Source: Escallonia rubra (taxonomy: Eukaryota > Streptophyta > Magnoliopsida > Escalloniales > Escalloniaceae). Taken from it: a DNA stretch of 64,000 nt. The notes under the pieces are model-generated. The model was given only the letters and a program-made list of their open reading frames with translations, did not search any database and was not told where the DNA came from. Below, in pieces: positions 17,980-61,235 of this stretch. Within the stretch, counting starts at the first letter, position 1; each line of letters begins with the position of its first letter. Location: contig JAVXUO010002576.1 in the NCBI GenBank assembly GCA_033065855.1, forward strand, positions 87,452 through 151,451, written 5' to 3'. Both the position numbers and the translations under genes were made by a program.

Positions 17980-17984
<5 letters not shown>

Positions 17985-18210
17985 AGGAGGGAGAGAATAT
18001 TAGGATTAGCTTAATCATAATTATTTTGCCAAATGCTCAATGAGATTTCGAGTCCGAATTTTTTTGGTGCAACGCCACGAGAAATTCAATTTTTCATCTT
18101 TGCAAAACCTCTAGATCAGGCGTTGATGGTCGTCTTTGACCCGCTTGAGATCGTGGCTTAGTACGTTGCACGTGATATGTCCAGTGATACAACCTCACCA
18201 TGCACGCCAC

Positions 18211-29953: not shown

Positions 29954-30068
29954 TCAGGTATCTTTGGGACCAACATTAAACTTCGCAATGAAAAACCCAA
30001 TTGTATCAAGTGGAGATGACGGATCAAATCTCTGAACAAGATTTTCCTCACCATGTCTTAACCATTCC
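29954..30068 (-). CDS. NOP2C: NOP2C-like gene, exon 13 (terminal)
   Basis: 115 bp after TTCCAG|GGA. It encodes [20 protein letters not shown] then [10 protein letters not shown], and ends NVGPKDT-stop (TGA at 29956-29954). Confidence 0.95.
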
Positions 30069-33000
30069 CTGGAAAATACAGCATATTGAGATTCCCACAA
30101 CTAAGCATTTTATTTTGTTTAACACAATATCGAAAAGAGCCAAACAACCTTCTTGTTATTTGATCTAAGCAAGGACTAATGTAAAGCCAAATTTCTAAAT
30201 TCGTGAATGTATTGCAGTTTCAAGCGCTGGACATTTGACTAGTCCCTTTCTAGATTAAGCTTAATAATATTTGACATCCACATGTATTAAATTTATTCAT
30301 TACCAATATAAAAGAGCATGCACTAGTGATAATAAAGGTAATGTGAATCCCACCTCCGAGTGGGATAATATGTGTTTGACCGTATAATGCGTTGCCTATA
30401 AACTGACAAGTAGTAGCCCTTTTGAGGAAGGCATTGCCCTATGGTGGAGCCATGAACCCGATCATTACACATGCTATCAAAGTTGGGCTATCCACTTAGG
30501 TTGGCAGTGAGTGGGGGAAATGATGCCACACCCGGGCATATCCTACATCAAGAGGATGGTTGGTACAACAAAGTATGAGAGGGCTATATCTCACATTGGC
30601 TAGAGAGGAAGATTTTAGGCCATGTGTGATGGAGCCTTAGCAAGGACGCCACGGCGTACGGACAGGAGATTGTGATATCTCATATCGTATGGGGATAATA
30701 TCCACTTAAACTTTTAAGACGCTGCCCACGAACTCACAAGTACTTACTTTGCTAGCCCTTCGGAGGGAGACATCGCCCTATGTCGGGCCGGTCACGGTAC
30801 ACGAGACAGTACATCTTATTTAGATAACATAACAGGCAGGCCTATCTGAAAGTTCATATATTTTATTGCATGAAGTTCATGTTGCCAAAAAAACTATAAT
30901 TGGTAGAGAATGCCAATACCGATAACAGGTAAAAACTTACTCAATATATCCGTTGGGCAATTTACAGCTACCAACGAGGCCAGCTCCCCCAACTCTCGGA
31001 TGCTGAAACAAAAGGCATAATAAGTTAAAAGGCTAATGTGCCATAGAATGTTTTAGCAAGTACTCCCATACTAGCAATTTTCTCTTACTGGTGTACGTAA
31101 GACTGACTAAGATCTAAAGGAAATCCAGAATCTACTAGTCCTTACAGGATGACTTGGGGCAGCCATTACTTCAATTATCTATAAGGCCCTGCTATTTTGT
31201 TATCTATTGTACTAATGATTAAGATCTTCAAGACCAATGTAGAGTTGGATTTCTAATAATTCTAATGATGTTTGTCTACTTATATCATGTCTTTGTTTGT
31301 GATTCCAGCCTCAGTTGCAGAAAAGATAGAGAGCTTGTAAGAAAGTTCATTTGGGAAAGGTTGGTGGAGAGCAATAAGTATCACTTAGGTAACTATGACA
31401 CATTATGTACACAGACTCGTCAAGGTGGATTGGGTCTAAAGAAACTGAGATACGTATATCATTGCACTTCTTGTGGTAAATGATTATAGAGGTATATGGG
31501 GAATAGAAAAGCGTCATGGAGACATTTGGTTGTGCGAAAGTACAGGTTGGGACATGGTCACAAGGAGGTTAGAAGGGCTTATGGGTGCAGCCTGTGGGTG
31601 GTTGAACCAGTTTGAGGAGCCTATCAACTTTGGTATCCGTAATGCCTCCCAGCTTCTATTTTGGAAGGACAGGTGTTGTGGGAATATATTTTCACTCGTG
31701 GCTTTTCGTCAGTTACCTTGATCTCAAGCGACAAAAAAGCTTGGGTCTCAGATGTCCTAGAAATTACAGCAGCGGTATATCTTGGAATCCGCTCTTTAGA
31801 AGTGGTCTTCAGGATTGGGAATGGACTCGGTCGTGACCCTCCTACAGACCCTCTAATTGGAGCAGGTAGACAGGGAGAGCAAGGATTAAATGATGTGGAA
31901 GGGGCTCTGAATGTAGGCTTTTCAGTTAAGTCCTATTATTCTTGATTGTTTGTAGGTGATAGTGTGTTCCTTTGGCATTCTTTTTGGCATCGGCTGTTAC
32001 CCTAAGGTGCGCCTTTTTGGGTGGAAAGCGAAGAGAGACGCAATTTTGACCAATGATAAACTGAGGAAGTGCCAAAGAATTTTTTTAATAGGTGTTACAT
32101 ATGTAAGGGTGGTAGGGAGTCCGTTCACCATTCGTTGTTACATGTGTGCTGGAGCTTGTTCCTTATGGCAATTGGTCTTTGATCTTTCGATGATCCAGTG
32201 GGTTATGCCTAGATCGGTACCTGAGCTGTTGGGATGTTGGTTCCTTCATAAATGGAGCAAAAAGACTGAATTTATGGGGAATAATTCCCCTAAGGCTTTT
32301 CTGGAGCATTTTTTCAACATTGAGGAGCTGTTGTTGGATAAGCTCAATCTTCCCCTTTGCCTTGGGCCAAGGGGTCCAACTCCATTGGTAGTACAAAACA
32401 ATTTGATGACTGAACTAGAAAATTTGGGGAAACCTGACCACGTCATAAATAGTTCTCTTTGAGCGTCAGACAACTGCAAAATGTTTCACAGGAGAACAAC
32501 GTGGATGACATTCTTTAATAGTCAAAAAACAGGTACGAGAAGCACCTCAATAAGCTTGAGTTTGAATATCTATGAAGAGCTTCCTACTAAAGATAAAGGT
32601 GCCAAACACATGCATATTCCTTATTCTAAGAGAATGAGAAAATTAAGCAGGCTAATTATATTGCAACATAGTCATCTTATATAAGTCTTAGATCATGTTA
32701 AAGTGAAAAAACTCGTCAAGTGCCCATACGTGTCAAAACGCATCTAATCAAAAAATCTAATGTCACACAAATAGCTTGAATTTTTGGGAGGCAACATCGT
32801 AATTGTATTCCTCAAAGGTTAAAACAGCAGCTCAAATATTGAGCTGAAACGCAGAAACATGGAAACATCGCAAAAGGATTGCAAGGTGACAGTACACTAC
32901 TCTGAATTAAGAAAAATGTCGCAGTAGCTTGATTTTCAGATGATAGAAGTTGCGACAATTGCTAGCCTATGAGCAAGTATATTTTGGCTTGGTCTCAAGC

Positions 33001-36000
33001 TTGAATTTGCTTATATTAGAGTCCAGATATTGAGAGAGGAACCTTTCCATCCCTTCAGACTGTTTCCGCTCCTATGTTTACATGGAGGAGAGCCGACAGG
33101 GTGTGATGCTTCATGCAGGACCTCTGTTCTGGTCTCCTCTACCCCTCATGATAATTGGGAAAAGGAAGGCTTATGATAACCAGAACCAGTCACGATCGGG
33201 GGACAAGAAAGACAAGCTAAACAGTGATTACCGCGACAGGACTAGGCACACATATGAGACTTGATGGAAACTGAATCTTCATCCTGCTACTACCCAACAA
33301 AAGGTGAGGGTGACATAGGCAACTCTTCTAGGACATCCCATAGTGGATCTTGTAACCAGCTTCGTGTTCATCACACTATAGCTGCTGACACTTCATCTCC
33401 TACAGGGGTCCCTTCTACTGCTGATTAAGCCGGGAGGAGATACAGGCGATCAGAAGTCCTGTCTCTAAGCCGGAGACACCAATCTATTTACATTAGTGAA
33501 AAAGCCAGATGCATAAAGGAAGTGTACGTTGGCAATCAATTTTCATTAGCGAGCGCATGCCTTTGATTTGAATAGTCATGTACCTCAGCTATAGCTGTTA
33601 ATGTAAGTTTAGGCCCTACACTCCTTGGGTCATTGACTTAGGTACTCAGAATATACGGTTCGTATGTCTACTTCATATTCCTCCTATAACACTAATTCAT
33701 GTAGGGATAAAGTTAGAGGTTGATCAGGTCCATCATTCCACCTGTCATTGAGCTCTCTTGTATCAAGCTTGGCTTTGGCATAGATGTTTAGGACTTCTCT
33801 ATTTTCGTACAGTGAAAAATTGTTTTCCTTCAATGTTTGCAAAAATTGATATTTCTGAAGTTCAATGTGAAACTTGTGAACTTGCTGAACACCACCGTGT
33901 GTCATTCTATTTAAGTTATGCCCTATATAATCTTACATGCTGATATTTGGATCCATCTTCATCCATAACTTTTTGGTTTAGATGGTTTGCAGCTTTCATT
34001 GATGATCTCCTTCAAACTTGGGTCTATTTGTTAGAAGACAAGAGTAATGTGTTTGAGTGTTTCAAACTTTTCACCGAATGATTCAAACTATCTATAGTGC
34101 TTCAATTAAAATTATTCCGTCTGACAGTGGCACCGAGTATCTCTATCATGATCTCTCTGCTTTTCTCCACGAGCACTGTATAATCCATCAACGTACCTGT
34201 GCAGATACTCCTTAACAAAACGGGGTTGCTGAAAATCAGCATCTTCTAGAGCTAGCACGACCCCTTATGTCTTGAATACATGTACCAAAGCCATGTTAAG
34301 AAGATGCGGAATTAATCGTTGTCTATCTAATCAATCATGTACTCTCTGGGGCTCTTGACTTCAAGAGACCGATTGAACTCGTCTCCTCCATCACCAGCTT
34401 CTTTCTTTGTTGTTGCATACGTGTCTTTGGTTGCACTCGTTCTGTCCATGTTCATGTGTGTTTTCGTGCTAAGCTAGACCCGAGCCCACACATGTCTTCC
34501 TGGATACTCGTCCACACAAAAGGAATATAACCGTTTTCACCCACCTTTTGAAAGAGTTTTGTATCCATTGATGTTAAAGTCTTTGAGTCTTCTCCTTTCC
34601 TTACGTCATCCAAGATTTCTCTTAAGATGGAAAATACAGGTGAAGGGCAGCCTCCTCTTCCTTTTGTCATTCTTGTTCAGGGTTCTAAAGACAAAAACAA
34701 CCGTCTTTCATGGGGTTTAGCGGTTAAAACAACGACCAGAAAAGAACTACAAGTTTACTCCAGGAGGAAGAAGAATAAAGTTGTTCGTCTCCCCTGCCGA
34801 TTGTTAAGTTACTATCTACTCTAAAAGTATAAGCTGACAGATAAGGGGCCCTAACATGTATATCATTGCTTAACACTCCCCCTAACATGCCATCCTTGAT
34901 CTCACATAGAGAGACAAGTTGACAAGAAATAAACCAAGGTGCACCACCACGTACACAAATAAATTGAGTGCGTTGCACTGTAATAAAGAGGGACCAAATA
35001 GAATCGAACTCAAGACCTTGCGCAACGAGAGCTCTAGTACCATGTTAAGTTACCATCTGGTCTAGAAGCTTAAGCTGTCAGAGAATGGACCCAAAACGTA
35101 TATCACTGCTTCAAACCAATCAAAGTCTTTGAGACCAGGCAAATCTTCCAGTGACCTTGAAGTTCCTATTGGAGTACTCTAAAGTTCTTATGTCACCTTT
35201 ATATCTAAGTTGTCTTCTGTTTCCAATCCAAGAAGTCTGCAAGATGCCTTGGACACCCCTTAATGAAAGATGCCATGTCTGATTAGAAGAGAGCTTTCGA
35301 AAAATAGTATTTGGGAGTTAGTTAAACATGCAATGACTGCAAATGGGTGTTCACATTGAAGCACAAGGCATGTGGATCAGTGGAACGCTACATGGCTAGA
35401 CAGGTAGCTAGAGGATTCAATCAGAGATATGGGATTGATAATCAAGAAATGTTTGCTCCGGTAGCAAACATGAATTCTACCAGAGGTATACTGTCCTCAG
35501 CAGCAAATTTTAGAATGCCACCACTCCAACTTGTGGAAAATGCCTTGTAATACGGAGACTTGGTGAAAGAAGTCCATATGGTTGACCCTCCTGATTTTAT
35601 ACCTCCTTTAATTTGGGGAAGGTGTGTCGACTTATAAGAAGTCCATATGGCTTGGTTTGAGCATTCCTTCCAAATGCTGAGATATGGCTATTTACTGAGT
35701 CAAAGTGATCACAGGTTCATCAAAACACTCACCTCCGGGAAAGGTAACCGTCTTTGACGGTTTACTTTGAAAATACTGCAATAGCCATTGATAATTATGC
35801 CAAGATAGCAAAACTTAAAGCCTATTTGACTAAGGAGTTCGAGATAAAGGACCTTGGAAACATATTCTGGGAATTGAAGTTGCCCGATCGAGGAGAGGTA
35901 CTTTTATCTCCCAACGAAATTACATTTTGGATCTACTTTAGAAAATAGAAAAATGAAATGCCGGTAGAACAGAATGTGCAATTGGCGGACAACAGATATA

Positions 36001-39000
36001 GTAGCCCGGTTGATAAACAAAGATATCTGAGAATAATTGTAAGGCTGTCTGAGAATAATTGTAAGGCTGATTTATTTGTATCATACGCATCCTGATACTG
36101 CATATGCAGTAGAATTAGTGAGCCAATCTATGCATGCTACAAAGGAATCTCACATGGAAGCAGCTATCGTGTGCTTTGATAGCTTAAGACCCCGAGAAAG
36201 GTTTTGTTCTGGGCATGGTAACTCACGAGTGGAGGCTTACGCAAATGAAGGATGAGCTAGATCAGTGACAGACAGGAAATCTACCTCAGCGTACCTTACT
36301 CTAGTTGGAGGGAATTTCGTATTGGAGGATAAGAAGCAACCTGTAGTTGCCTGGTTGAGTTATGAAGCAAAAAATAGAGCTATGCTCATGGTGTTTGTGA
36401 GTTGATTTGGTTGCAAGCAGGAGCTCAGAGTGCAGTTTGACTGTCCTACATGGTTGTGTTGTAACTAACAAGTTTGCAATTAACATTGCTCACAATCCTA
36501 TGCAACACGACAAAACTAACACATTGAAGTGGACAGATTTTATTAAAGAAAAGCTGGATCTTGGTCTAAATTTTAGCACTTTTGCGCAATTGGAGAGCAA
36601 CTAGCAGATGTTCTAACTGAAAGACTATATACCAAGTACTATGCTTCATAGTGTGTTAGGCAAGCTGGGCATGTGTGACATCTAGCACCAGCGTGAGGAG
36701 GACTGTTGTTGTCATTGATTATAATGTGGGAGGGTATTATTGTCATGTAAAACGCTTGTTATATAAATAGCAGTAGGGGGCATCTAATCTCAATTTTTTC
36801 CTCCCATCTCTTTCATCTCTTCCTCTTGAACCTTAATTACAACTCAGGGCAATAGAAAGATCTCACATTCTCAGTGAAGGAGCATGGATCTGAAACAAGG
36901 TCAGCGGCATCAAGGTTGCAACATTATCCACGACTTCAATAGGTGGTGCTGGGAAGATAACACGTTTGAAGATGCCTGGCATGTGTCAGATTACATCTCA
37001 TTCGTCCTCTTTTCCCGTTCAATGTTACCTAACTCTAGGACAAAGGATCCAAGATGGGTGATTTTGATTTTGTCCATTTTCATTTTTGATGATAATATCA
37101 AAATGAAGATGGATTTTTAGCCGTTTAGGTGTTATAATAGAAAGTAAGCAAAAGGTTAAAACCTACTCATTCCTGTTTTAACCAATTTGAGTTTCCAGAC
37201 ATTAGATTAATTTTACATCCACTTTCATGTCATCTCTTTATGCCCCCCCCCAATCCCCCCCCGCGGTCCTATGTTGGCCTGGACAGAACATATCTTTCTT
37301 TCGACGAATGTCCATAAAAGTGTTATAATAATGACAAGAACGCAGAAAGGTGAAGCAAGCATTATTGGTACAATGTTAATTTACAGACATACTGGCATAT
37401 GGCCCTAAGGAATTGATTATTCGAGTTAACCATCATGAATGCCAACAATATAAGAAGCTTTACAAAATTTATGCGAAGTTGTAACTTGTTTTAGCAAACC
37501 AACAAGTAGTTTGAGTTTTGATATTATTATGACTAACCATCCTTGGCCAGTAGCATAACAAAAAATTGAAAAACTGTAACTTTTATACGTTATACAGATA
37601 AAAATCAGTAACATAACTTATATTCTGACCTGTGATGCCAATGAGAGAAACTTGTATGTATCCAAGGCATACCGAACCAGTGATTCATTCTCACCAGGGT
37701 TTATTGTACATCTGACAATTGAAACCACTCTTAGCATTTGGAAGAACATATACCAAATAACATGAAGATCAATGCTCTACCGCAAACATAGCATGAATGA
37801 CTACTTAGATGCAAGAGTGTTGGAAGAAAAGGAAGCACATAAAATGAATGACCATCACATGAATATAACAAAAGAAAACTTTTACGAAGTACGAAAGAAT
37901 CTAAACATCAAAACACTTAATTCAGTTTTGTTATATGCTAGAGATTGAAAATAAGACTTCAAGACAGCCAAGAATAAAGAATTCTAAGAACTGAGTCGGC
38001 TTTTTACTACAAAAAAAAAAAAAAGAAAAAAAACCATAATAAGGGAAGGAAAGAAAGGAAAACTAAAATAAACCCTTTACAGCTATGCCAGTCACTTATT
38101 TGTTGGTAAAGGTTAGCAATTGTCACTAAATGCAATTTTAGCAGGGGTGGAAAAGAATTTAAGAGGATGCAAATAGCATCTCCAGTAACTACTTTCTATG
38201 CATCTCCAATATATTGGTATCTTCTTCCAGACCATAGTTATTAAAGGCGCAGGCGCACCTAAGGCGCAAAGGGTCCCTGGAGCCTAGGAGCAAGGCGCAA
38301 CGCACAGGCGAGCGCCTTTTCGAAGTGAGGCGCAAAATAAAAATAAATAGATATTAGTGCATTGAACGAATAAAAATAACACAAAAAATTCAGAACATGG
38401 CAATTTAACAAACTTTGAACACTAGAAAAGGTTTCAAACCTAATGAGAAGTAGTTGATCCTAATTAAATGACAACGTCATCCTTATCATTAGTGAAGGCT
38501 AAAGCAACAATGTTTTCCTCAAATAGAATCATAGGCTCCAAGTCTGGTAGAGATTCCTCCTCAATTTCATCTTCTTTGTCTACAAGGTGAAGTGAAGGAG
38601 TATGTTTACTTAAAAAAGAGTAACAATTGGAAACGGGATGCTAGCACAATGAACAACAATACGACAATCGATCGATTATGGATTTGGGGTTTTAGGTTTT
38701 TTCGTGGTTTAGATATTGATTTATTATGTTATGAAATATAGAATAAAAATTAATGAACGGTTGAGATGATACCATGATGCCAAAATTAGGATTTTTGGGC
38801 TTTTCTTTGCACCTCCACCGCCGCCTTGCGCCTTAGGCACGCAAAGCACGCGCCTTTTCGACGGGGCTGCGCCTAGCCCTAGGCGACGCGCAGGGAGTGC
38901 GCCTTGCGCCTAGGCACGCCTTTGATAACACTGTTCCAAACTCATGCAACCAATCCACCAACCATAGAATCTTAGCACCTATACACCTGGATCCCCATGA

Positions 39001-48000: not shown

Positions 48001-51000
48001 TCGCACCAAAAATAGGCGGAAAAAAAGATTATGGATAGCGACGGGTTACCACGTGGATTGGTGAAGGGTTAGAGGATTTACTTGATACCAAGAAGGATAG
48101 CTCTAATCTTCATATAATTACCCATCATTACCCTATTTGACCAATCTCCATTGTTAACCCTTTTTTTTTCCCTTCCAATGCATGTTTTTCATCTTTCGTT
48201 TTGTTTTCTTCTTCTTTTTTTTTTTTGACTTCAGCTTTAGCTACAAGACTAGGACCCCATAGGGTGCATGGATAGAATTTTGACTGGACGCCTGACAGGG
48301 CTTTAAGACCTGGATCGTTGAGGAGGGATTGAAAACTGTCAAGCTACTTTGCTGGACGCTTAGTGATCAGTGAGCATAGGACCCCTGACAGTGCTTTGAG
48401 AGATGGACTCCTGATGCGGCTATCCAAATTCAGCCCATACAGGCTGCTTGAAATCGCTCTAAAGGAGCTGTAGCAACCACAGTCTCTATTAAAATGGGAG
48501 GACTTTACAGAACCTTGATTGCAGGATTCTCCAGTTCTAGTGATCGCCCAGAACCTTGCTCAGGAACCTTGAATTTTCCATCTAATCACCACAAGCTATA
48601 TTTTCAAGCATTAAACTCTGCTTATCCATTATAATATGGTTAGAATAATACTTCAACATGCATCAGGTCGAGAAATTAATGTTCAGTTAATTCAACAGAC
48701 CTGTTGATGCTACATGAGATTCGTTTCATAGGGCATTGATGCACGATGTGGGATTCATATGACATGGACTCATGGTGTTACAATCATGTGTTCAGTTCAG
48801 AAAATGCACCTTATTGTGAGACCTATCAACTGCAACCACCTCTCCTTTGTCCTTCATAAGCATTGCAATTGCAGTTGTTTTCCCTCCCGGTGCTGCACAC
48901 ATATCCAATATCCTCTCTCCCTGTTGAGGATCTATGCCCGTAAATGAAAACAAGAAGCTGTCATGCAGAAAAAGAGGGGTGGGGATAGAAGATTTTTCAA
49001 TAAAACTGTCATATATAGTTTTCATTAAATCGGTCAAACTTGAAGTGCTACCTGAACGAGATTACAAGTTTCCTAGCAAGTGGAAGAGGCTACTAAATAT
49101 GATGAAAATATCTACTGATGATGAATAAAAATAAGCCTGAGCTCAAGAGTGATGAAAGTAGGTTCAATAAAGTCCACACTGGCATTGAGATTCAAATAGT
49201 AAATATGGCGTAAAGGACGATGGAGAGGCCATTCGCAGAAGTGTCCCACCGTATACACTTTTATTGCTTTCTCTCTACAGAGATAAGATCAGTTAATACA
49301 TTTCGATGTTTAGATTGTGTCATCGAATGGTGTACACGAGGGATTTGAAGACATCTCCGAAGGAGGGTTCAAGATGACACCTATTTGGAGTTTGGGCTGG
49401 GATGGTTTGAATAGGTGTAACACTTCGAAAGGCAAAGGAGGCTTCAAGATGACATTTACTTGGAGTTTGGGGTCGGGATGGTTTGACTAGGTGTAAGACT
49501 TTGAAACGCAACCTTTTCACTTCGTAGTATCCTTCGTACTGGTTTTTCTAAGAGCTTGAGTATGGAAATCAATTCAACCAAATTCAGTAAGCTAAAATGA
49601 GCTACAGGAAACCAAAATCATTGCAGGCTAAATGAAGTACGGCATTTAGAGCAAGAACATGTACCAGAAATTTATCAGAGAACATCTGCTTTGACAGGAG
49701 AGAATGGAAGAAAAGATTGTAGATCCCAACTAGATTAGGAGATAGTTCCTACTATAGCACTGTTTCTTTTGCCATTACTCAAAAGATGGAAGTAGCAACA
49801 GGACGTTGCTTGAAACTCAAGGGGTGTAATGACTTTCACCTTTTTGTTTTCTTTATTTCTTCTTCTTCTCTTCTAAATTGAAGTTAATTGCTTCTGCGTT
49901 ACTATCCAAGGCCCCTAGAGAAACATTCAACTTAACATTTACACAGAACCAGCCAAGCACTAGTGCTTTTGTGTAGCTATATATGCATGTTAAACACCTA
50001 AAACCCCCAGACTTCTGCTTCCCAGAACTTTAAGTAATCATTTCAAGTAGTTAATTTTCTGCAACTTACAGAGTCAAAACAAGCACTCAAAATCCAAAAA
50101 TCTTTACAGCCTTCCATCTCCCTTGTAAAGCCCCAACCCCAATATGAACCTATGGTGGCATTAATCTCAGGTTAGCATGGGTGTCCACTAATGCAGGAGA
50201 ACTTTTCCTGCTGGAAGAAGAAACAGTATGGCGTCTGCAGCAACTTTTTTGGAAATTTTCACATTCATTTTTTGTATCATTTCCTAAAACAAAATAATGA
50301 AAGTTCAAAATGCCAGAACTCCCTGTTCATTTCAACTATGAGGTTTCCTAGACCAGAAAAAGGAAATAGCTGGGTTGCAAGTTATCCATTCTGAACAAAA
50401 AGCAACTCATAATGAATCTAAATGCTCCAGTGGAAAAAGAAGTGCAATAAACAGAGCATGACGTGGACTTATACCAATTTTGACCAACATATTAAACATA
50501 GCTAGCAAAAATCAAAGTAATTGCACCACTAAAAGCCACATATATGCTTTTTCAAGCTGTCCCTTGTTAAGTCAAAGTTAACCACTTATCCTTTAGTTTT
50601 AATGTTGATCACAATCAATAATGTGTTCTTGGATCAATACAGTATTTCATAAATGCTATACATTATCCATCTTATAATGTTGATTTTTTCACAAATTTAA
50701 GGAATAAATGATAAAGAAAAATCGTACACAGCACCAGTAAAGACTGCTCTGTACAATTGACATAAGAGTAAGCAATAATACTTAAGACAACTTTTATAGA
50801 CATGTGTATACATTGGAAGCGAGAGAGACAGAGAGAGAGAGAAGTAGAGAGGCAGAAAGAGAGAAGACATACCTAAGGCATGCGCGGTGATTATACTTGG
50901 CAGGTTTTGAAGAAATATTTCCCCCTTGAGCACATCTACAAACAAAAACATACATGCATTACCAAAAGTGTTCTATTATGTTCATTGCTGTTTTCAAGAG

Positions 51001-54000
51001 TTGCTTTCCTCTTCAAAAAGAATTTGAGACCAATACCATGTATGTAAACTTTGTCTTTGGTGAAGAAGGGAGTAGAAATAAGCTTTCTTGAGTCAAAAAT
51101 ATATAATAAAGCAATCTGTGCTCTTTAAAAATCAAGTCCAAACTCAGAAGATATACCATCTGAGAAAGTCTAGACTCAGAAAAATAGCAATGGCTAAAAT
51201 GCATTTCATACTGGGCCAGGAGCAAGAATTTGAATGCTCTTTTCTTGAAAATATTTCTCTGACATCTGCCCTTCTAGGCCAGTTGAATCACAACTTATGC
51301 ACTGATACGGCCTACCATCACTTGAGCAGAACTATATCAACAAATCGTTCTTATGGTGGGTTATAATAAATATCCAACTCTTAGACAAGGTTGATCTCGC
51401 ATATCCAAGCAGTAAGCACTCAGAAAAAAATCTAAACAAATAAGAAATTTTAAAACGTGCCCAGCTTGCGCCTGCCCCAAACAAAAGTAAGGTGTTACAT
51501 AAAATGGATGTGAAAAATAGGATTTGATTCCTATTGTATCTCTAATTCAAACCCTCAACACGCCATTATATTTTCCTGTTCATCATCTTCCTAAAGAGCT
51601 CATAAAAACCAAAGGGCAGCCTAGTACATGAGGCTCCTGCCATTTTGGTGACTGGGGAAGGTGATTAAACAGTCTAAACCTGGCTGTTTTCGTGTTACGA
51701 AACCGTGACCTCCAGACCTGAAAGGCTCGTATTAGGAATTGTCAATGCGAAAGAGAGGGGTTTCCTTGCCTTACCACAAGACCCTCCTGGATATTTTTAC
51801 AAGATACTCGGCATTCTCACTACACTGGACACTTTTTATAAGGAATGGTATGTACTAGTAGATATCCAAATGCAACGACCAAAACATTTCTCAAAAGAGT
51901 TTAACGCGCATTAGCTATCAAGTATTCAAACTAAATTTCGGAAAGAAAAGAACCATACCATTGAACGAAGCCAGTGTAAATACCCTATTACTCATAGCCA
52001 CTGCAACTCCCTCCAAAACGCGAAACATCCCAGCTCTCGACATCATTGTGGTCCCTTGGCCAATATATAGGCCATTCCGTTCATAAAAATGAGGATCTGC
52101 AATAGGAATAACATGACAAAACCCTAAGACTCCTAATAAAAATAATTGCTGAACACCCCGGAAGGTGCGAAGAATGCTTGTTAGTGAAAAACAGACATAG
52201 AAAAGCACAGACCACCTTTTTAACTCGGTGCCCAAAGACTTATTAGTTATTACAGTTAAATTTACTCAGATTGCGTCAGATTTAGGCTTTGGCTTCCATT
52301 AAAGGTTGGCCAGAAGATAAAAGGAGGCCTGAAATTACGTTTACTATACCACTCGTTTAGAGAAGTCGACCAATACGAATTAGCGGATTTGACGGAGAAG
52401 ACCGCAAATCTCACAAAAAGTTCTATGTACTCTGCAGCGTGAAACTTTCTCAGCTAAAAAATATGTCTCAGACCAGCAAGGTAGCCTAAGATTTAAACCA
52501 CGGCAAAATTATATCACAGCTAGCATATTTTGGAAAATCTGTATCGTCCCAGCTAGCTTAAATGGTGACTATCTAATGGATCATAGTATAGCGATCGTAT
52601 TCTCTTAAACTCTTTCACTTCCATACAGCTGAACGACTTCTAGAGACTAATAGTTAGCTCACACAGCATGAACAGAAAAATGACCATGAATTTCTTGCCT
52701 GTCTGCAACCCTTGAAGAATAGTCCCACGTGTTATACCAGTACCCCATCCACCATCAAGACCAGCCTGTTCCACAGCAACCGAAACAGCCACTACATCCC
52801 CATTCTCAACATGAGCACTGCAGGCCAATACACCCGGTACATACACCTACTTGTGAAACATGAACGACCTCTTAGCATTTATGGAGTAAAGCTGCGACAT
52901 AAAAAATAAAAAAAAAACATAGCTACATCCGAAGTTACTTAGAACTACTTCACAGGGAGCTCAAGCGACAGATAAAATCCCTATTTAGGCAGCATGGTAA
53001 TGTGAGTACCTGAGCACCTCGAAGAACTGCCTCTGCACATTTACGGCTCACGATCACCTCCTTCAGAGGTTTGTCTTCTGTGTGCTTGTAATCAATAGAA
53101 TGTGGTCCTGAACCTCTGACAAATAGAACATAGTCTAGCCCAGGTAATTGACACTTACTAATTGGACCCGATTGTACACCCGCCTTAAGAGGGTCCAAAG
53201 CTGTGTTACTGCAGACAGCCGAACTCTGCAAAAAAAAAACTAGTGTCATATTGGATTCTCTTATGCAACCAGCCCTTATTGGCATCATCTTTTGTTAGTA
53301 TGGGTGAGGAGGAGAGCACATTTTACCCCTTTTTCCAGAATTTCCAAAAGCTTCTCAATAGCAGCATCCGTTGTTGACTTCAGTGTATTTACTCGTATAC
53401 AAGAGTAACAAGATGGTCGCCTAAATCAAAAGAAAAGAGCACGACAGTGTGAACTAGGAGAGAAGAAACACTGGAAAGGACGGGAACGTGTCATACTATA
53501 TTCCCGCAGTTAGTCTTCATCTCTCAGGATATAATAGGTAAACAAATACTATTGATGCTGTGAGCACGGCAACTATATAGCTTGTAAAAGGAGGGCAGCA
53601 CAACTATTAAGCATATTGTAAGATGAGTACGAACTCTGCAACTACAGAAAGTTGCACTAAGTAACGACCAAGAGTGTATGTACAACATCAAAAGAGTAGT
53701 ATGGTCGTTTAACCAAAACATAAGAGCAAAAGCAAGTAATGAGAAAAATGCACACTGAAAGAATAAAAAAGGAGTCATTATCTCTTCGAGCACAAATTTG
53801 TACACATAGAAAACTAAAAAGGCATCGTCTAGAAAAGAATGCTGATCGAGACCTTAAAAGCATCTAGAAGAGGACATTTTGGCCACTAAGCAATTCCTAA
53901 AATGTGCTCAATGTGCTACTCAACTGAATAAAACATGTTCTCGGTAGTCGGTACGACACAAACATGTTTACAGGTGTCGGTGGAAATAAAGAACGAGACT

Positions 54001-57000
54001 CTTTCTGGAAATTAGATAAATGAAGGTAGAAAGTTTTGAGAAACTTTTGTAGCTGGTAGTAAGCTCTGCCAGTGTCAGATTTTCTGTAGAGATGGCATTA
54101 CCACAATTTGGTGTTTACTAGTGGTACTTTTGTAGGTACAGGAAGTTACTCAAACGCACATTTTAAGAGTTTCCGATATGCAAATCAATTTTAGCCAGGG
54201 TTTGAGAACTAAGTACAATTGGCAAGCGTAGACTTGATCATTAAGAACTTCTTCAGTTTTATAAAGAGAATTTAATTCTAGGCTCTACAGAAGAAGGATT
54301 TGAAGTTGATACATTTAGAGGTTTGCTTAGAAGACATTCAAGGAGGATGACCCGCGTATTTGTAGGCAGGGCTTTTAACAAAAGTCTTGAAGGGTAATCA
54401 AATTGTTAAATACTGATTAGAGACAAATAGCGCAATGGAAGAAAATTTATTGGGACTGCTCAAAGGGTGCTTTCAACAGTAGTCCATCAGGAGCAACTTC
54501 ACTGTTGTGGGTTCTCAAGTATAAACCTCAATCTTTTCCTTTCCTTTTATTTAAAATCTTTAAACAGCCCGACACCTCTCTTACTGGATTTCCCTGTATC
54601 CTGTAGTATCTCTGTAATTCTGCTGAAATTCCGCCAACCAAAACTCCAAAAATATCTCAAAGCGTCCTGCTCTTTTTAACCCAATCAGACAAATCCTCTC
54701 CAGTAAAGACCTCACAGGACCAACCCACTTTACCCAGCACATCTTCTCTGGAATAGCAAAGTTCAGAGGCATCACCACCACCTCTGACGACACAACATTG
54801 AAGAGTATAAGTAGCATTTCCACAGCCTCGCATTGAAGTATGATGGAAGCCCCCACACACCCCCCCCCCCTTCTTCACTAAAACCATCAGAAAAACTTTA
54901 GGATGTAATTCCACCCATCATAGCTATCTTCTTCCCTATTACTCGAGTCAATATCACATCCAACGAAGGGCTCAATTCTTGAAAGGCTGCCTGAAACCAC
55001 GCCCAACCCTATTCTTGGCACCACCATGCCCGATGTCCCAACTGGCTAAGAACTTTGAATCTACCCAAAAGGATCTCGCATCCTCCCTTCAACCCGCATG
55101 CTTGAAGTCAACATTTCTCGATTACAGGGGTGAGTGCAATACCAACCACCATCAGGCTCGTCTGCATATTCCAAACAACTAAAGGTTCAGGTAAAGAATG
55201 CAACAAGGAGTGAGGCAAGACAGTATGCAAGGAAAAAACTATGACGGGATTCCTCCATAACACTCAAATAACCTCAGAAACTCACAAGATAATGTAAACG
55301 GCTGCGGAACATCCTTTGCACAACAAAAATTCTAAAAGTCCAACCGTTCCTTTTGACCTGTAATTTCCACATCATCAAGAGCACAAAGTTTCTCCTCCTT
55401 TTGGTCGCCACGTTAAAGAAAACTTCTATGCAAGTCTTTCTCTTTCTTCTGCTAACACTCCCTCATGCACACAGCTTACAAGCTTAAGAACCTGTCTCAG
55501 TGTCAAGTGACAACCTTGGTGCCAAAAGGAGAAATTAACGACCACCCCATGTTCCCTAGCCACCGGCAGACATCAAAAGATGGTATACTACCTTCTACTC
55601 CCTCACAAACACCAATTTAGAAGCATTAGGATAGAACATCCCCCTTAAAATCCAAAGCAATGCATCTTCTTAAGATTATATAAGAAGATGAATAAACAAT
55701 CCTCTTTTCTTGGCACGGAAAAATACAGACGTTAACCCCATAGTACCTCATCCCTTTCCGTAGTATGAGTTAGTTGGTGCGCTGAACTGCCACACTCCCG
55801 TATAACCAAACTCAAATGACATTTATCTTCAAATTTCCAAGTGAGACTCAAAGCCTTCATGATATGAGGAGAATCATATATTTTGTGTTTCCCATTTACC
55901 CCTAAAGAGAGGGGGAGGAGAAAGTGGGCCAAGAGAGAAAATGATTGGCGGAGGGTTAAATGTGGAGAAAGAAATAGAATCAAAAAAGTTTAAACACGGC
56001 AAACATGGAAAAACACCTTAAGAATCTTTCTTACTTTGGAAAATAAGCAACTTTTTTGGGACAGCAAAAAAATGAAACATGATCAATTTTTTTGGGACGG
56101 AGGGAGTACTATCCTAGTTCTAGAATAGTTCTCCCAATTCATGTAGGACTCTCTATTCTGTTTCTTATAGGATAGTCTTTATATGCTATTAGATGGTCCA
56201 TTGTAATCAGTTTTATTATGCATAGTAATATAATTATCTTCCCTTTACCTTTTCTATCATGGTATCAGAGTGGTACGATCCGCTATTTTGAGAATCTCTT
56301 AACCACTTTCGCAAATCCCCGCGGACGGCCTTTTACCGACTGTGGTGTGTTCTTCTTCTTTTTTTTTTTTTTTTTTTTTTTGTGTGATCTTTTCTTCTTG
56401 AGTTCAAAATCTTGGACTTTCTTTCCTTCCGGTGACCTTCGCTTCTTTTAACACCCTAGTGACTTTCCGGTACCCCAGTGCACCTTTCAACCGTCGTCGA
56501 TTGTCTTTCCCTTTCTTTTCTTTCCACAACTTTCATCTTGCTTGCGACAGAAAGCTCTATCCTTGAATTTCCAATCAATCGCCGGCGACCACACGGGCAT
56601 ACACCTTATCGCACGCCCTCAAGCGCAGCTTGACGGCGACGCGCTATTTCTTCCCTCTATGGTCTTCACAGGCGCAGCTGTCTCCTCACGCATGGCTGTT
56701 CTCTCATGCCCGGCCACTTCTTTAGCTTGCGCATCTTCGGCTCTGTCCACGTGTGCCTTCCTCTAATGCACATGGGGCTCACTCCCGCTCACTCCTTCCG
56801 GCTTGGCTGTTCAACTCCGGTTGCTCAAACCAGATTTTATTGCCCTTGATCGGTTCGGTGATTTTTTTACCACCTATCCACGACTGTTCAAACACCTTTT
56901 CAACTATTTTTTTTTTTTTTTTTATGAGGTTATTTTCACCTAAGGCCCACTACCTATTTCTAAATTTTCCTCCTTATGCAGTAATTTCGGATCGAGGTTA

Positions 57001-58497
57001 TTCACATCCTTATTGAAGCTCTTTAGTCTCCTCCTCATGCCACCATTCGGATCGATGCGTTTTATTCTCATCCTCATCGAGGCATTTTAATCTCCTCTCA
57101 TGTCGTCATTCATATTGAGGCTCTTTCTTCTCATCCTTATCCAGACTTCTTTTTCTCATGTCTGTATCCCCGGACATCAATCCTAGCTTCTTTTACTCGT
57201 CTCTTCAGATTTCATCTTGAGAACTCTTTTTATTGTATCCCCGGACTTCGAGTCTGGCTTCTTTTCTTGTGTATTGAGACTTCATTTCGAGATTACTTTC
57301 CTTATGTCACCTGACTTCACGCCACGACTCTTTTTCTTGTGTCTCCAGACTAATCTTAGGACTTCTTTCTTTGTGTCACCGGACTTTGCGCGGGACTTTT
57401 TTCCTTTGTCTTCAAAATTCACCCTGAGACCTCCATGGTCATCAGAGTTCGCCTCAGATCTCTTTTCATTGTCGTCAAAGCTCACCCCGAGACTTCTATG
57501 TTCATCACACCTCCCCGCGCCTTAGTGGTCGAAGCTTATTTGGATCTTGAATCTTCTGAATCGGACCTCAAATCTACAATACAATGCCACGACCTCAACT
57601 TGAGTCTTCCTCAATGCAGCAAGCATCAAGACACTGCTTCGGAGTTAACCTCAAACTCAAGCTTGTTCTCTCTACCATCTTCAGTTGGAAGGAAGGTGGG
57701 GGGGAGAAGGGTTCGATTACTATGTCAATTGCCTATCCCGTATTATTCTACGTCTAGAATATCCTATAGCTCCCTAACTCATGTAGGACTCTCTATTCTG
57801 TTTCTTGTAAGATAGCCTTTCCATGCCTATACAAAGGCTACATTGTCCTCAATTTTATAATGTTGAGTAATATAATTATCTTGATCTTGATCTTTCTATC
57901 ACTTTGTCCGCTTTTGACAAAGTAGGTGTCTGCTGGTAAAGTCCCGAGTAGCAAACCAAAGACTTGTGCAATAGCTTTGCTTTTTTAGTACATGAACCTA
58001 TGAAAAATTTCACATCATATATTGCATGAGCAGTTCAGAAAGTATATTAGGAAAAAATAATGACATAATAACAAGTGATTTCCAATATCTAATCCTCCCC
58101 TATGTTCCAGTAGATTTCCCCTTTCAGTTTTTGCGAAATCTTAAACTAGCTTGTGGCACATGTAAACATCGAATCAAAAAATCTTATGTAAACATCGAAT
58201 TGAACACACATAGTAATTGTAGATTAGAAAAGAACAGTTTGGCAGGGTCAAACTAAAGTAAAAACGATGAATAAAGTCAATGTCTACACCAAGTATGTAT
58301 GTCCTAAGGATTGGCAAAAAGACAGTACGCAAGTGGTTGTACGAACTGAGAGTGACGTGAAAGTACGTTAGGGCAATGGAGATGCGAGAGAAGTGGTCAG
58401 GTCCGTATGCTTTGATAAAATAGTCTTCCACCTCGGGCTTCCAACGCAAGCTTGGGTTGTAGCAGTAACGCTCCAATGGATCCATCTGCACTGGCAT
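29954..58497 (-). CDS. NOP2C: RNA (cytosine-5) methyltransferase, NOP2C / NSUN6-like, 13 exons
   Basis: It transfers a methyl group from S-adenosylmethionine to C5 of cytosine in RNA. NSUN6 relatives act on tRNA, and the plant member is generally filed with NOL1/NOP2/Sun proteins. Joining the 13 exons listed below gives one uninterrupted frame of 1,731 bp (576 residues), close to the ~600 residues I recall for the Arabidopsis homologue. Visible parts are an N-terminal [24 protein letters not shown] block; a PUA-like domain (about 110-225) with [24 protein letters not shown] motif [14 protein letters not shown] (272-284); VDRSHNK (298-304); motif [14 protein letters not shown] (441-452, C444); and motif [14 protein letters not shown] (catalytic C492). 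The C-terminus is [17 protein letters not shown] followed by NVGPKDT. All key residues are present. Start: the ATG at 58497 has A at -3. An in-frame ATG at 58638 would add 47 residues. The symbol rests on memory of the family. Confidence 0.95.
30069..30940 (-). other. Intron 12 with a diverged repeated segment
   Basis: 872-bp GT-AG intron. At about 30345-30465 and 30675-30800 two related stretches occur (GGGATAATAT, then CGTTGCC or CGCTGCC, an ACTCACAAGTA-type word, TAGCCCTT, and CATTGCCCTATG or CATCGCCCTATG). Between them lies TATCTCACATTGGCTAGAG. This suggests an inserted, decayed LTR- or SINE-like repeat of unknown family. Confidence 0.45.
30941..31002 (-). CDS. NOP2C: NOP2C-like gene, exon 12
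   Basis: 62 bp after TTTCAG|CAT. It encodes [20 protein letters not shown] plus two bases. Donor TTGA|GTAAGT, phase 2. It is separated from exon 11 by a 6.6-kb intron full of retroelement remains. Confidence 0.94.
31316..32270 (+). pseudogene. LINE (L1-like) ORF2 C-terminal remnant with zf-RVT region
   Basis: Translation gives the post-RT region of plant non-LTR elements: [20 protein letters not shown] with [12 protein letters not shown] (31340-31450), then a glycosyl-like [13 protein letters not shown] stretch with FWKDRCCGN (31490-31690). Next comes the zf-RVT type segment with [20 protein letters not shown] followed by a Cys/His-poor tail (31990-32220). Several frame changes and stops separate these pieces, and the RT core and ORF1 are missing, so it is a dead 3' fragment. 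A clear poly(A) tail and target duplication are not seen. Confidence 0.75.
32930..36860 (+). mobile_element. Ty1/copia retrotransposon fossil 2, plus strand, 5'-truncated
   Basis: Parts in order are a gag C-terminal and zinc-knuckle remnant (about 32930-33310), gag-pre-integrase (about 33760-33920), integrase (about 34000-34560), RT (about 35340-35950) and RNase H (about 36000-36650). A polypurine tract GTGAGGAGGAC at 36693 is followed by one LTR starting TGTTGTTGTC at 36704, with TATATAAATAG near 36763. The LTR end is not exact. No 5' LTR is found. It is extensively broken and carries a SINE-like insertion. It is antisense to the methyltransferase gene in whose intron it lies. Confidence 0.85.
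34805..35100 (-). repeat. SINE-like tRNA-derived insertion in copia fossil 2
   Basis: Read on the minus strand, it contains TTAACATGGTACTAGAGC then GGTCTTGAGTTCGATTC, A-box- and B-box-like words of a Pol III SINE. A ~60-bp segment is repeated at both ends: GTTAAGTTACTATCTACTCT at 34805 and GTTAAGTTACCATCTGGTCT at 35044, each followed by AAGCTGWCAG and TATATCA. This gives a partial tandem like the array at 22461. Confidence 0.55.
37630..37711 (-). CDS. NOP2C: NOP2C-like gene, exon 11 (catalytic motif VI)
   Basis: 82 bp after TGTCAG|ATG. It completes YSTC and encodes [20 protein letters not shown] to LASQ, including the presumed catalytic cysteine. Donor CACAG|GTCAGA, phase 0. Confidence 0.95.
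38225..38941. mobile_element. hAT non-autonomous element D
   Basis: Flanked by TTCCAGAC (38225-38232) and TTCCAAAC (38934-38941), an 8-bp duplication with one difference. The element is 38233-38933 (701 bp). Ends are CATAGTTATTAAAGGCG and, inward from the right, CAGTGTTATCAAAGGCG. Both ends are crowded with AGGCGC / GCGCCT words (38248-38335 and 38815-38925), and the centre is AT-rich. No transposase is present. Confidence 0.88.
39530..42720 (+). mobile_element. Probable LTR-retrotransposon remnant, family unclear
   Basis: A primer-site-like CTGGTATCAGCAC at about 39740 follows a TC-rich end, ...GCGCCACATCA. Upstream, AGGGTATTGTAG, CTTCCAAGTAGTCTTAGGG (39552-39605) loosely matches AGGGTATTTCGG, GCCCAAGTAGTATCGGG (41567-41615), consistent with two diverged LTRs. 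The internal part has only a weak gag-like look and no recognisable polymerase. hAT element E sits in the right LTR-like part. Old and broken. Confidence 0.35.
41653..42605. mobile_element. hAT non-autonomous element E with 8-bp target duplication
   Basis: ATTATCAT is duplicated exactly at 41653-41660 and 42598-42605. The element is 41661-42597 (937 bp). Ends are CTAGGTAGCACGGACACGG and, inward from the right, CTCTGAAGCACGGACACC. Both ends are packed with GTGTCCGACAC / GGTGTCGG words. The centre contains a purine-rich leader-like stretch (GAAAGAAAGAAAG) and a CTCCGGCGAC/GGCGACTGCGAC minisatellite (about 42130-42320) that yields Arg- or Ala-rich artefact frames. Confidence 0.9.
43019..43119 (-). 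CDS. NOP2C: NOP2C-like gene, exon 10
   Basis: 101 bp after TTGAAG|GAA. It encodes [19 protein letters not shown] to GGVIVYS plus two bases of T491. Donor CCAC|GTATGT, phase 2. The acceptor AAG is weaker than the others but is fixed by frame and homology. Confidence 0.93.
43120..43997 (-). other. Intron 9
   Basis: 878-bp GT-AG intron with no recognisable insertion. Confidence 0.85.
43998..44218 (-). CDS. NOP2C: NOP2C-like gene, exon 9 (motif IV)
   Basis: 221 bp after TTTCAG|CAA. It encodes a charged linker and then [19 protein letters not shown], holding the motif IV cysteine. Donor GAG|GTGAGG, phase 0. Confidence 0.96.
44219..46349 (-). other. Intron 8 with a hAT end fragment
   Basis: 2.1-kb GT-AG intron. 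At 45325-45425, CTATGTTACATGGACACGG is followed by GTGTCCGAGTCGG, ACGTGTCCAAGTGTCGG and GACACGGGAACACGGG. This is the same kind of word-rich end as hAT element E, but without a matching right end. The rest is unremarkable. Confidence 0.6.
46350..46587 (-). CDS. NOP2C: NOP2C-like gene, exon 8
   Basis: 238 bp after TTTTAG|GTG. It encodes [20 protein letters not shown] and then a low-conservation linker rich in Ser/Thr/Glu ending TTSENI. Donor ATTT|GTAAGT, phase 1. Confidence 0.94.
46588..48809 (-). other. Intron 7
   Basis: 2.2-kb GT-AG intron. No gene or element recognised. A T-rich segment lies near 48150-48230. Confidence 0.85.
48810..48931 (-). CDS. NOP2C: NOP2C-like gene, exon 7 (SAM motif I)
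   Basis: 122 bp after GGCATAG|ATC. It encodes [18 protein letters not shown] (motif I) through [10 protein letters not shown]. Donor AAG|GTGCAT, phase 0. Confidence 0.97.
48932..50872 (-). other. Intron 6 with a small tandem repeat
   Basis: 1.9-kb GT-AG intron. At 49362-49510 a 75-bp unit is present twice (GGTTCAAGATGACACCTATT and GCTTCAAGATGACATTTACT, each followed by TGGAGTTTGG and GGGATGGTTTGA). A GA-rich run lies at about 50820-50865. Confidence 0.85.
50873..50935 (-). CDS. NOP2C: NOP2C-like gene, exon 6
   Basis: 63 bp after TTTGTAG|ATG. It encodes [20 protein letters not shown]. Donor TTAG|GTATGT, phase 1. Family members share the FLQN-PS segment just before the SAM-binding core. Confidence 0.95.
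50936..51958 (-). other. Intron 5
   Basis: 1.0-kb GT-AG intron with no recognisable insertion. Confidence 0.85.
51959..52096 (-). CDS. NOP2C: NOP2C-like gene, exon 5
   Basis: 138 bp after TTGCAG|ATC. It encodes [20 protein letters not shown] to LASFN. Donor AATG|GTATGG, phase 1. It covers the rest of the PUA-like region. Confidence 0.95.
52097..52698 (-). other. Intron 4, GC-AG type
   Basis: 602-bp intron starting GCAAGA and ending TTGCAG on the minus strand. No GT donor nearby keeps the reading frame. The joined residues [17 protein letters not shown] match the expected family sequence. Confidence 0.85.
52699..52846 (-). CDS. NOP2C: NOP2C-like gene, exon 4 (GC donor)
   Basis: 148 bp after GTAG|GTG. 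It encodes [17 protein letters not shown] through [12 protein letters not shown]. The only frame-keeping donor is ACAG|GCAAGA, a GC-type splice site, phase 1. Confidence 0.94.
53010..53225 (-). CDS. NOP2C: NOP2C-like gene, exon 3
   Basis: 216 bp after TTGCAG|AGT, phase 0 at both ends. It encodes the beginning of the PUA-like region ([29 protein letters not shown]). Donor CAG|GTACTC. Confidence 0.96.
53327..53420 (-). CDS. NOP2C: NOP2C-like gene, exon 2
   Basis: 94 bp after acceptor TTTAG|GCG. It encodes [18 protein letters not shown] and onward to EILEKG. Donor GGG|GTAAAA, phase 0. The CIRVNT core is conserved in the family. Confidence 0.94.
55990..56108. mobile_element. Stowaway (Tc1/mariner) MITE, right-end fragment
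   Basis: Ends TTTTTTGGGACGGAGGGAG followed by the target dinucleotide TA (56107-56108). This is the inverse of the Stowaway terminus CTCCCTCCGTCCC. The left terminus is missing, so only about 115 bp remains. Confidence 0.75.
56109..57901 (+). mobile_element. Small LTR element (TRIM/LARD-like) in intron 1
   Basis: Two similar direct repeats, about 56112-56259 and 57738-57901, share CATGTAGGACTCTCTATTCTG, GATAG-CTTT and AGTAATATAATTATCTT and end TTTCTATCA. TGGTATCAGAG (tRNA-Met primer site) follows the first, and a G/A-rich polypurine tract (57686-57710) precedes the second. The ~1.5-kb interior has no recognisable gag or pol and contains degenerate CGGACTTCGAGTCTGG-type repeats (57150-57500) and T-runs. 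It is non-autonomous. Exact LTR starts are not resolved. Confidence 0.7.
56358..56381. repeat. Poly(T) run
   Basis: About 22 consecutive T inside the small LTR element. Confidence 0.85.
58367..58497 (-). CDS. NOP2C: NOP2C-like gene, exon 1
   Basis: 131 bp from the start codon, encoding residues 1-44 ([15 protein letters not shown] through RISIAL plus two bases of T44). The donor is AAC|GTACTT, phase 2. Confidence 0.93.
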
Positions 58498-59180
58498 GTT
58501 ATTAGTGTAAATCGGGGGGATGAATGTAAAAGACAGACAGCAGGAAGGCTCATCAGAGCATGCCTTGGAAGGAGTTGAATTGGGCAGAGAACGAAAGCTT
58601 CTGCGAGTGGTTTTGAGCAAAACCCACCCTTTCTTCATTCAAATTGGGGCAACATACTCCTCTCGCTCGTTTGTCCCAGAGTAATTTTTGAATTTGCTCC
58701 TTTTTGGAATTAAAATAATATAATTCGAATTAAAAAAAAATTAGAATAAATGTATATTTGATATTCGTAATTCTAATCCATTCAATATTTGAAAATTTTC
58801 TTTGTAGGCTTCTGGGTTGAAGAAATGTTTGATAGTACTGCTGACAAGAAAAGTAAGTAGAGAAATAAAAAGAATGAATTTACGTCTTTATTTTTGTAAT
58901 CAGTTAAATTTGTTTATGATATACAATTAAGATTTGTAATTTTTAAGACGATGTACGTAACTGAATAGATTTTCAGTTCAAATTAGCGTCATATTTAAGC
59001 CTTATTTTTTTCCTCATTTTTTTATGCATATTTAACCCTTTTTCCATTTATTTGTTTTCCAACAGCCATTTGTTTCTTAACTGATATTTACGTATTTCAA
59101 TTTCTTTTTTTTTTAGTTTGTCAATTGGTTAATTGTTTGCTAACCTAAAAACGTAAGGAAAAATAATCACAGTTCTCATT
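58498..59180 (-). promoter_or_regulatory. Probable 5' UTR and promoter of the NOP2C-like gene
   Basis: This is the region upstream of the start codon on the minus strand. TTATATTATTTTAATT near 58705-58722 could be a TATA box. The frame is open from an ATG at 58638, immediately after an in-frame TGA, to the chosen start at 58497. A longer N-terminus (MKKGWVLLKTTRRSFRSLP and onward, basic and Ser-rich) is therefore possible. Transcript start not known. Confidence 0.4.
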
Positions 59181-59186
59181 ACTCAA

Positions 59187-59460
59187 TTCATTATTCAATA
59201 TTTATTTCATATCAACCAAATAAAAAATGGAGTAATAAGGAAATTTCTTTATTTTGTTTTTCTTTCTCATATGACTTTTCATTTCCCAATGTTTATAAAG
59301 ATTCATTATCCAATGTTTATTTCATTTCAACCAAATAAAAAATGGAGTAATAAAGAAATTTATTTATTTTGTTTTTCTTTTTCATATGACTTTTCATTTT
59401 CCAGTGTTCATAAGTAGATTCATTATCTAATGTTCATTTCATTTCAACCAAATTTAATAG
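59187..59460. repeat. Three-copy tandem repeat, period about 115 bp
   Basis: ATTCATTATYCAATRTTTATTT starts at 59187, 59301 and, in variant form, 59418. The first two copies continue with AACCAAATAAAAAATGGAG, AAATTT-TTTATTTTG and CATATGACTTTTCATTT. The third is truncated. Confidence 0.9.
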
Positions 59461-59568
59461 GGAGTCATAAATAGAAGGTAAAAGTGTTATTGATATAATT
59501 GACATAGGACATAATCGTCCAGAAATGATTTATAATATTCGTATTTTTATAGATAGTATAATATAGAG

Positions 59569-59613
<45 letters not shown>

Positions 59614-60689: not shown

Positions 60690-61235
60690 ACATATAAAAC
60701 GACTTTTAAAGACGGATTTTTCGTCGCTAAAAGTCATGTTTCCGTCGCTAAAACATTTCACCGATGAAACGTTAGTCAATAAAAGCCCTTTGGTAAAAAT
60801 CCTGTCGCTAACCAACTAGCGATTGAATAATGCAATCCGTCGGTAAAAATTAAACTTTTACTGACGTAATTAATTACTTCTAACGATGGAGTAGTATTTT
60901 CCCACACTTTATATTTTCTCTAAAAAATAATTTAAAAAGACTTTTAGTGATAGAATACTCGTTGCTAAAAGTATGTCCCTATTAGTGTCAGATCTAGCAA
61001 TGGACAGTCTGCCGCTAAAGTTCTGTCGCTAAAAGTTCATCCCTATAGGTGTCAAATTTAGCTACAAACAGAACAACGCTAAAAGCATGTCGCAAAAAAA
61101 ATAAAATGGACTTTAGTGAGGAATAGTATGTCGCTAAAAAAGTGTTGCAAATCTGGATAAAGTACTTTTAGTGATGCAATTTCCGTTGATAAAGTTCATT
61201 GGTAAAAGTAAACTGTGTTTCTAAAAAACCTGCTT
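60690..61235. mobile_element. Decayed CACTA subterminal array
   Basis: Many imperfect CGTCGCTAAAA, TTAGCGACGG and GTCGGTAAAA words, the same vocabulary as the ends of the CACTA element at 1273-3517, but much more diverged. A CACTACAAG terminus is not preserved. TTTCTAAAAAACCTGCTTCATGTAATG at the right may be a worn end. Confidence 0.6.

Follow-up and report, generated by a model that had tools for sequence, protein, structure and literature searches.

The DNA analyzed here raises the question of whether 13 short coding stretches, scattered over 28.5 kb of repeat-laden sequence, form one working gene, and if so, which enzyme this gene encodes and how its introns became so long. The DNA analyzed, hereafter the window, is a stretch of 64,000 nucleotides that forms the end of contig C1982 (positions 87452-151451 of 151451) in an assembly of 566 Mb and 3,222 contigs. 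As far as can be judged from the sequence, it very probably contains a nuclear plant gene, single-copy in this assembly, that would encode an NSUN6-type RNA m5C methyltransferase and whose introns have been lengthened by transposons. Below, we present the evidence for this view and weigh the alternatives.

The gene was rebuilt from the open frames on the minus strand, followed by exact joining of the exons, which run from 58497 to 29954:

58367..58497, minus strand, exon 1 (131 bp); ATG at 58497, alternative starts at 58485 and 58638
53327..53420, minus strand, exon 2 (94 bp)
53010..53225, minus strand, exon 3 (216 bp); the PUA domain begins here
52699..52846, minus strand, exon 4 (148 bp)
52097..52698, minus strand, intron 4, GC-AG
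51959..52096, minus strand, exon 5 (138 bp)
50873..50935, minus strand, exon 6 (63 bp)
48810..48931, minus strand, exon 7 (122 bp); SAM-binding motif
46350..46587, minus strand, exon 8 (238 bp); shares with exon 9 an insert of ~85 aa relative to human NSUN6
43998..44218, minus strand, exon 9 (221 bp); motif IV DAPC with Cys444
43019..43119, minus strand, exon 10 (101 bp); ends inside the Thr491 codon, just before Cys492
37630..37711, minus strand, exon 11 (82 bp); motif VI with Cys492
30941..31002, minus strand, exon 12 (62 bp)
29954..30068, minus strand, exon 13 (115 bp); stop TGA

Apart from the strand, which the original prediction does not name, this exact rebuild reproduced the structure given there, that is, 13 exons of 62-238 bp with matching phases spanning 29954-58497, six introns of more than 1.9 kb and about 6% of coding sequence. 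Thus, six of the 12 introns exceed that length (1,941; 2,131; 2,222; 4,946; 5,307 and 6,627 bp), and the coding share of the 28,544-bp span is 6.06%. The size of "exactly 1,731 bp" stood for the in-phase join, which corresponds to 576 aa, but its start at 58497 is one of at least two options, another being the in-frame ATG at 58638. All 12 introns have an AG acceptor, and 11 of the 12 donors are GT; with 11 GT-AG introns and one GC-AG intron, they belong to the major-type spliceosomal introns. The exception is intron 4, whose GC donor (CAG/GCAAGA) is also present on a second contig, C2922, that is discussed below. We considered the GC-AG intron as a possible surprise and rejected this, because GC-AG accounts for an average of 1.2% of the splice sites across the plants examined (PMC6310983), a mean from which we calculate a chance of about 13% that at least one of 12 introns is of this type. 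Intron 10 interrupts the Thr491 codon, immediately ahead of Cys492.

The start codon of the gene is ambiguous, and may be located at 58638, 58497 or 58485. The ATG at 58638 directly follows a stop codon, and its use would add 47 residues, MKKGWVLLKTTRRSF..., to the protein:

58498..58638, minus strand, upstream extension in frame from ATG 58638, 47 aa with 7 K/R and 2 D/E

This segment may be either 5'UTR or a basic N-terminal extension. C2922 has the same sequence here and in the near flank (328/328 bases). For AT1G06560 a downstream start at Met37 (Ac-ME) has been reported (PMC8770321), and alternative initiation would therefore fit the gene in the window, provided that AT1G06560 is its orthologue.

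Which enzyme does this gene encode? A Pfam search with a preliminary 535-aa join identified an RsmB/F methyltransferase domain (PF01189; 126.7 bits, cut-off 27) and, N-terminal to this core, a PUA domain (PF01472) that passed narrowly (26.0 bits, cut-off 24.8). A SAM motif is present at residues 273-282 (10 residues), and both family cysteines are kept: Cys444 in motif IV (DAPC) and Cys492 in motif VI (STCT). Together, PF01189, the SAM motif and the two cysteines bear out the earlier proposal of a putative RNA m5C methyltransferase with its catalytic motifs. In such enzymes, the cysteine of motif VI is reported to carry out the methylation and that of motif IV to release the product (PMC4535395).

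The protein was then compared with 24 sequences of solved structures. The full protein gave its best match of the 24 with NSUN6 (223.5 bits, E 3.5e-65), over residues 81-333 and 428-530, and the insert of ~85 aa relative to human NSUN6 lies between residues 333 and 428. NSUN6 was followed by Pyrococcus NSun6 (162.5 bits), three further methylase structures (80.1-96.3 bits) and Nop2 (at most 75.6 bits). When the methyltransferase part was used alone, NSUN6 again ranked first of 24 (185.2 bits), with Pyrococcus NSun6 at 129.0 bits and Nop2 at no more than 78.5 bits, so that NSUN6 is the nearest NSUN/NOP2 protein of known structure in both comparisons. With the N-terminal half alone, all three rows obtained at E 0.01 among the solved structures were NSUN6 proteins. 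On the other hand, the Lys-rich loop of human NSUN6 (157-163) is absent from the window protein, the one plant sequence compared: residues 166-204 (39 residues), which lie opposite this loop in the alignment, contain 0 Lys. The human loop reads the tRNA D-stem and has been termed eukaryote-specific (PMC6393295). Because this loop is absent here and may be specific to animals instead of shared by the whole family, we use the label "NSUN6-type".

These comparisons also bear on the possibility that the gene is a NOP2 paralogue that methylates large-subunit rRNA. We take the window gene to be the probable orthologue of Arabidopsis At1g06560 (NOP2C, TRM4F), and the name NOP2C implies such a role. 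At1g06560 has been listed as NOP2C (PMC4535395), and the methyltransferase cores are related, as reflected by the Nop2 scores of up to 78.5 bits. However, the core alone scores 185.2 bits with NSUN6, the N-terminal half matches NSUN6 proteins only (3/3 rows), and two other loci in the genome, C927:410126 and C1296:183511, contain short fragments whose best matches are Nop2 proteins. Furthermore, nop2c mutants are reported to keep wild-type methylation at 25S C2860, although the authors allow for redundancy (PMC4535395). We therefore reject membership of NOP2 and consider an rRNA-methylating paralogue of this kind highly improbable. The family search of the genome from which the two Nop2-like fragments come gave seven rows in all; one is exon 7 of the window gene, three others resemble, by eye, TRM4, NSUN5 and Fmu relatives, and the rows include the following position:

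C1767:110154, family-search row

The NSUN6-type gene appears to be present only once. Searching the source genome with the protein at E 0.001 (22 candidates scored) gave 19 rows: the 13 exons on C1982, recovered in order, and exons 1-6 on C2922. Beyond the latter, this search revealed no other copy of the gene in the 566-Mb assembly; an intact second copy elsewhere, which would have cast doubt on the original prediction if the present one were unexpressed, was thus not encountered. The recovery of all 13 exons in order and the match with NSUN6 (223.5 bits) argue that the gene model is not due to chance.

How should exons 1-6 on C2922 be interpreted? This contig (42,980 bp) matches window positions 49922-64000 in two blocks (99.7% and 98.4%), and the match spans from its first base to the last base of C1982, forming a dovetail at two contig ends. 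The most plausible reading is therefore that C2922 represents the other haplotype of the locus. Alternatively, it could be a recent segmental duplication, which would be in line with the presence of the sequence at two places in one assembly and with an intron difference of 0.94%. A dovetail at two contig ends, however, is the pattern that two haplotypes of a single locus should give, and we regard a duplication as unlikely. Use of C2922 positions 16,001-18,000 as query could not separate the two, as this region is repetitive.

Read as haplotypes, the two contigs can be compared over exons 1-6 (exons 7-13 are located outside the overlap). None of the 790 aligned coding bases differ, against 73 of the 7,765 aligned intron bases (0.94%) and 40 of the 5,497 upstream bases. 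As a control, the exon mask was shifted circularly along the alignment, with gaps counted as well as differences. Zero differences were obtained for 871 of all 14,078 shifts, and for 602 of the 10,952 shifts that overlap the true exons by no more than about a tenth. Excess coding constraint between the haplotypes is thus suggestive (about 5%), and only suggestive because exons 2-6 sit in a stretch of low divergence. Strong purifying selection, to which a plain Poisson reading of 0/790 would point, was rejected as a conclusion, given that 602/10,952 shifts are also free of differences.

Several of these results are relevant to whether the gene works. One might argue that this copy of the gene is decaying or silenced, being still intact because it is recent, with heterochromatin on the intronic transposons ending transcripts early. 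The repeat load is indeed heavy, some of the repeats having copies of up to 98% identity, and heterochromatin on intronic transposons has been reported to matter for host-gene transcription (PMC4417168). Against this, there is no damage to frame or splice sites across the 13 exons, the assembly shows no other copy that could take over, and the haplotypes show no coding change in exons 1-6, which makes a copy in decay quite improbable. Hence, the gene is real and probably working, and the earlier statement that it "appears functional" is upheld at the level of sequence by the intact frame, both cysteines, the lack of another copy in the assembly and, more weakly in view of the shift control, the 0/790 coding differences in exons 1-6.

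If the gene works, it does so with introns that have taken up a variety of elements:

55871..56112, no strand assigned, repeat of ~240 bp in intron 1
56131..57901, plus strand, small LTR element in intron 1, with repeats 56131-56259 and 57770-57901 at 80%
41661..42597, no strand assigned, 937-bp hAT-like element in intron 10, with an 8-bp duplication ATTATCAT on both sides
38230..38933, no strand assigned, 704-bp high-copy element in intron 10, with copies at 84-88% among the matches listed (40 of 3,728 candidates scored)
33728..35601, plus strand, copia-type pol fossil in two frames in intron 11, RVT_2 at 44.3 bits (cut-off 31.6)

The intronic transposons that had been proposed were confirmed in part. 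The copia fossil (RVT_2 above cut-off; gag_pre-integrase and SH3 matches below it), the small LTR pair and the hAT-like element stood, but the LINE claimed at 31956-32459 is weak, its zf-RVT match scoring 15.3 bits, below the cut-off of 27.5, and no hAT transposase was found, in that a six-frame search of the gene region at E 0.01 detected no hAT domain. For intron 11, the repeat content is that seen with Pfam only. Elements of the hAT type are characterized by terminal inverted repeats and by a target duplication of 8 bp. In 41661-42597, the 8-bp duplication is accompanied by an 11-bp inverted match, AGCACGGACAC, that starts 6 bases inside each end, and copies at 84-98% occur among the matches listed (40 of 3,728 candidates scored); because no hAT domain was found, we call the element only "hAT-like", and at most non-autonomous. 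The first LTR of the small element (56131-56259) is followed by TGGTATCAGAG, which presumably resembles a primer site. The ~240-bp repeat has an end, GGGACGGAGGGAGTA, that we take to be Stowaway-like, and dozens of copies at 78-85% among the matches listed (40 of 2,662 candidates scored).

Other observations concern introns 9 and 10. Positions 43598-43741 (plus strand) of intron 9 match plastid psaA/psaB at 21.8 bits, below the cut-off of 23.3, and contain in-frame stops; this is possibly an old plastid DNA insert. The segment 43521-43696 has a 76% relative on C884, and no match to the plastid-like fragment was found among phage records. Intron 10 contains a fold-back at 39186-39720 whose two arms, each ~165 bp long, match at 77%; it is followed by CTGGTATCAG. 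Intronic RNA genes were not found: the window has no tRNA and no Rfam match that reaches the gathering score.

Comparison of the two haplotypes revealed one step of intron growth. Intron 5 on C2922 has 420 extra bases, which correspond to a 417-bp element plus a TAA duplication, and the window has the empty site:

51675..51677, no strand assigned, TAA in intron 5, where C2922 has the 417-bp insertion between two TAA

Without the element and one TAA, C2922 reads as the window does, apart from a single mismatch nearby. Since C2922 bears the insertion and the window is empty, intron growth is still segregating. It is the TAA duplication, rather than the mere difference between two haplotypes, that argues for an insertion. 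The ends of the element, GCCGTTTGACAG and, reversed, GGCTCTGTTTGACAG, together with the TAA duplication resemble, in our estimation, those of Tourist/Harbinger MITEs. It has at least 94 partial matches as relatives (40 of 1,772 candidates scored; query offset by 7 bases), the top-scoring one among the matches listed showing 79% over bases 138-408, and there is no near-identical, full-length second copy among these matches. Window positions 16082-16185 match part of the insertion at 86.5%, and the same element family may sit there; the surrounding region, 15195-16435, has GC-rich repeats and a pair of 160-base copies. Elsewhere in the window, a 291-aa open frame at 5115-5987 (plus strand) matches Retrotrans_gag at 39 bits and the Ty3 capsid at 32.8 bits, both above cut-off, marking a Ty3-type element. 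Tandem arrays are present at 1711-2262 and 59186-59471; their units are TTCAATTTAGGG-like or, with 2.5 repetitions, 115 bp long.

Is a coding share of 6% exceptional for this genome? As a control, we used the TCP1-family matches in the same genome (58 rows), which provided 11 multi-hit loci; 11 rows on single-match contigs, one of them an uninterrupted 545.6-bit match, were left out. The matched spans of the multi-hit loci are 1.6-8.1 kb, and the three longest are 14-15% coding. Twenty gaps resembling single introns measure 63-2,982 bp, with a median of 396.5, versus a median of 1,482 for the 12 introns of the window gene (Mann-Whitney p 0.012). This control is rough: its spans represent the matched part only, introns beside undetected exons are uncounted, and two of the loci (C2494, C734) seem to be near-copies. 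The gene is long by the standard of its genome, yet of the same kind, so the 6% that had been put forward as notable holds as a low value relative to the TCP1 loci but not as a difference in kind. In its anatomy, the gene exemplifies, clearly but not unusually, how introns grow by insertion, one such step being visible as a difference between haplotypes.

Based on these results, we propose that the 28.5-kb pre-mRNA would be spliced normally and that the enzyme would use SAM, its motif VI cysteine methylating the target and its motif IV cysteine freeing the product. Judged by family only, the target would likely be C72 in a single tRNA or in a small number of them. Successive transposon insertions that spared the splice sites would have lengthened the introns, one of these insertions being still polymorphic.

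In importance, the biochemical lead on m5C72 outweighs the anatomy of the gene. Arabidopsis tRNA-Asp(GTC) has one m5C72 site that is independent of TRM4B and TRDMT1; for unassigned tRNA sites, the authors proposed RCMT9, and also allowed that the sites are possibly another modification (PMC4535395). According to the same report, NOP2C has an altered N1 motif, and the mutants nop2c-1 and nop2c-2, apparently tested on rRNA only, lost no rRNA site. Provided that the gene in the window is orthologous to At1g06560, its NSUN6-type domain order would make NOP2C a better m5C72 candidate than RCMT9. We tentatively suggest that plants have a true NSUN6-type enzyme, filed as NOP2C/TRM4F, which could be the missing m5C72 writer on Arabidopsis tRNA-Asp(GTC) and would select tRNAs without a Lys-rich D-stem loop; the loop would then not be a general eukaryotic feature. 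With a plant NSUN6-type enzyme lacking the human D-stem loop, the orphan plant tRNA m5C72 site becomes testable using the existing nop2c-1 and nop2c-2 mutants.

Comparison with known systems places the gene as follows. Human NSUN6 (PDB 5wwq, 9imb) shares the PUA domain, the RsmB/F core and both cysteines, and is the top match over both halves, but has the Lys-rich loop and is without the ~85-aa insert of the window protein. The NSun6 of Pyrococcus horikoshii, which we take to be PDB entry 5zvd, ranks second with both the full protein and the core, and last of the three rows with the N-terminal half, but is shorter and scores lower (162.5 bits). It likewise is reported to be without the Lys-rich loop (PMC6393295). 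The Arabidopsis gene At1g06560 has a downstream start at Met37 (PMC8770321), which can be likened to the second possible start of the window gene. It differs in having been filed as a NOP2 paralogue (PMC4535395) or TRM4 relative (PMC5740945), and not as NSUN6, a name under which we did not find it in the open-licence PubMed Central literature. Finally, intron growth by insertion was rightly called a known process in the original prediction: it has been documented in grapevine and conifers, whose introns are likewise long and transposon-rich, with some recent insertions (PMC3058033; PMC4108047), and the introns of the window gene are in essence the same.
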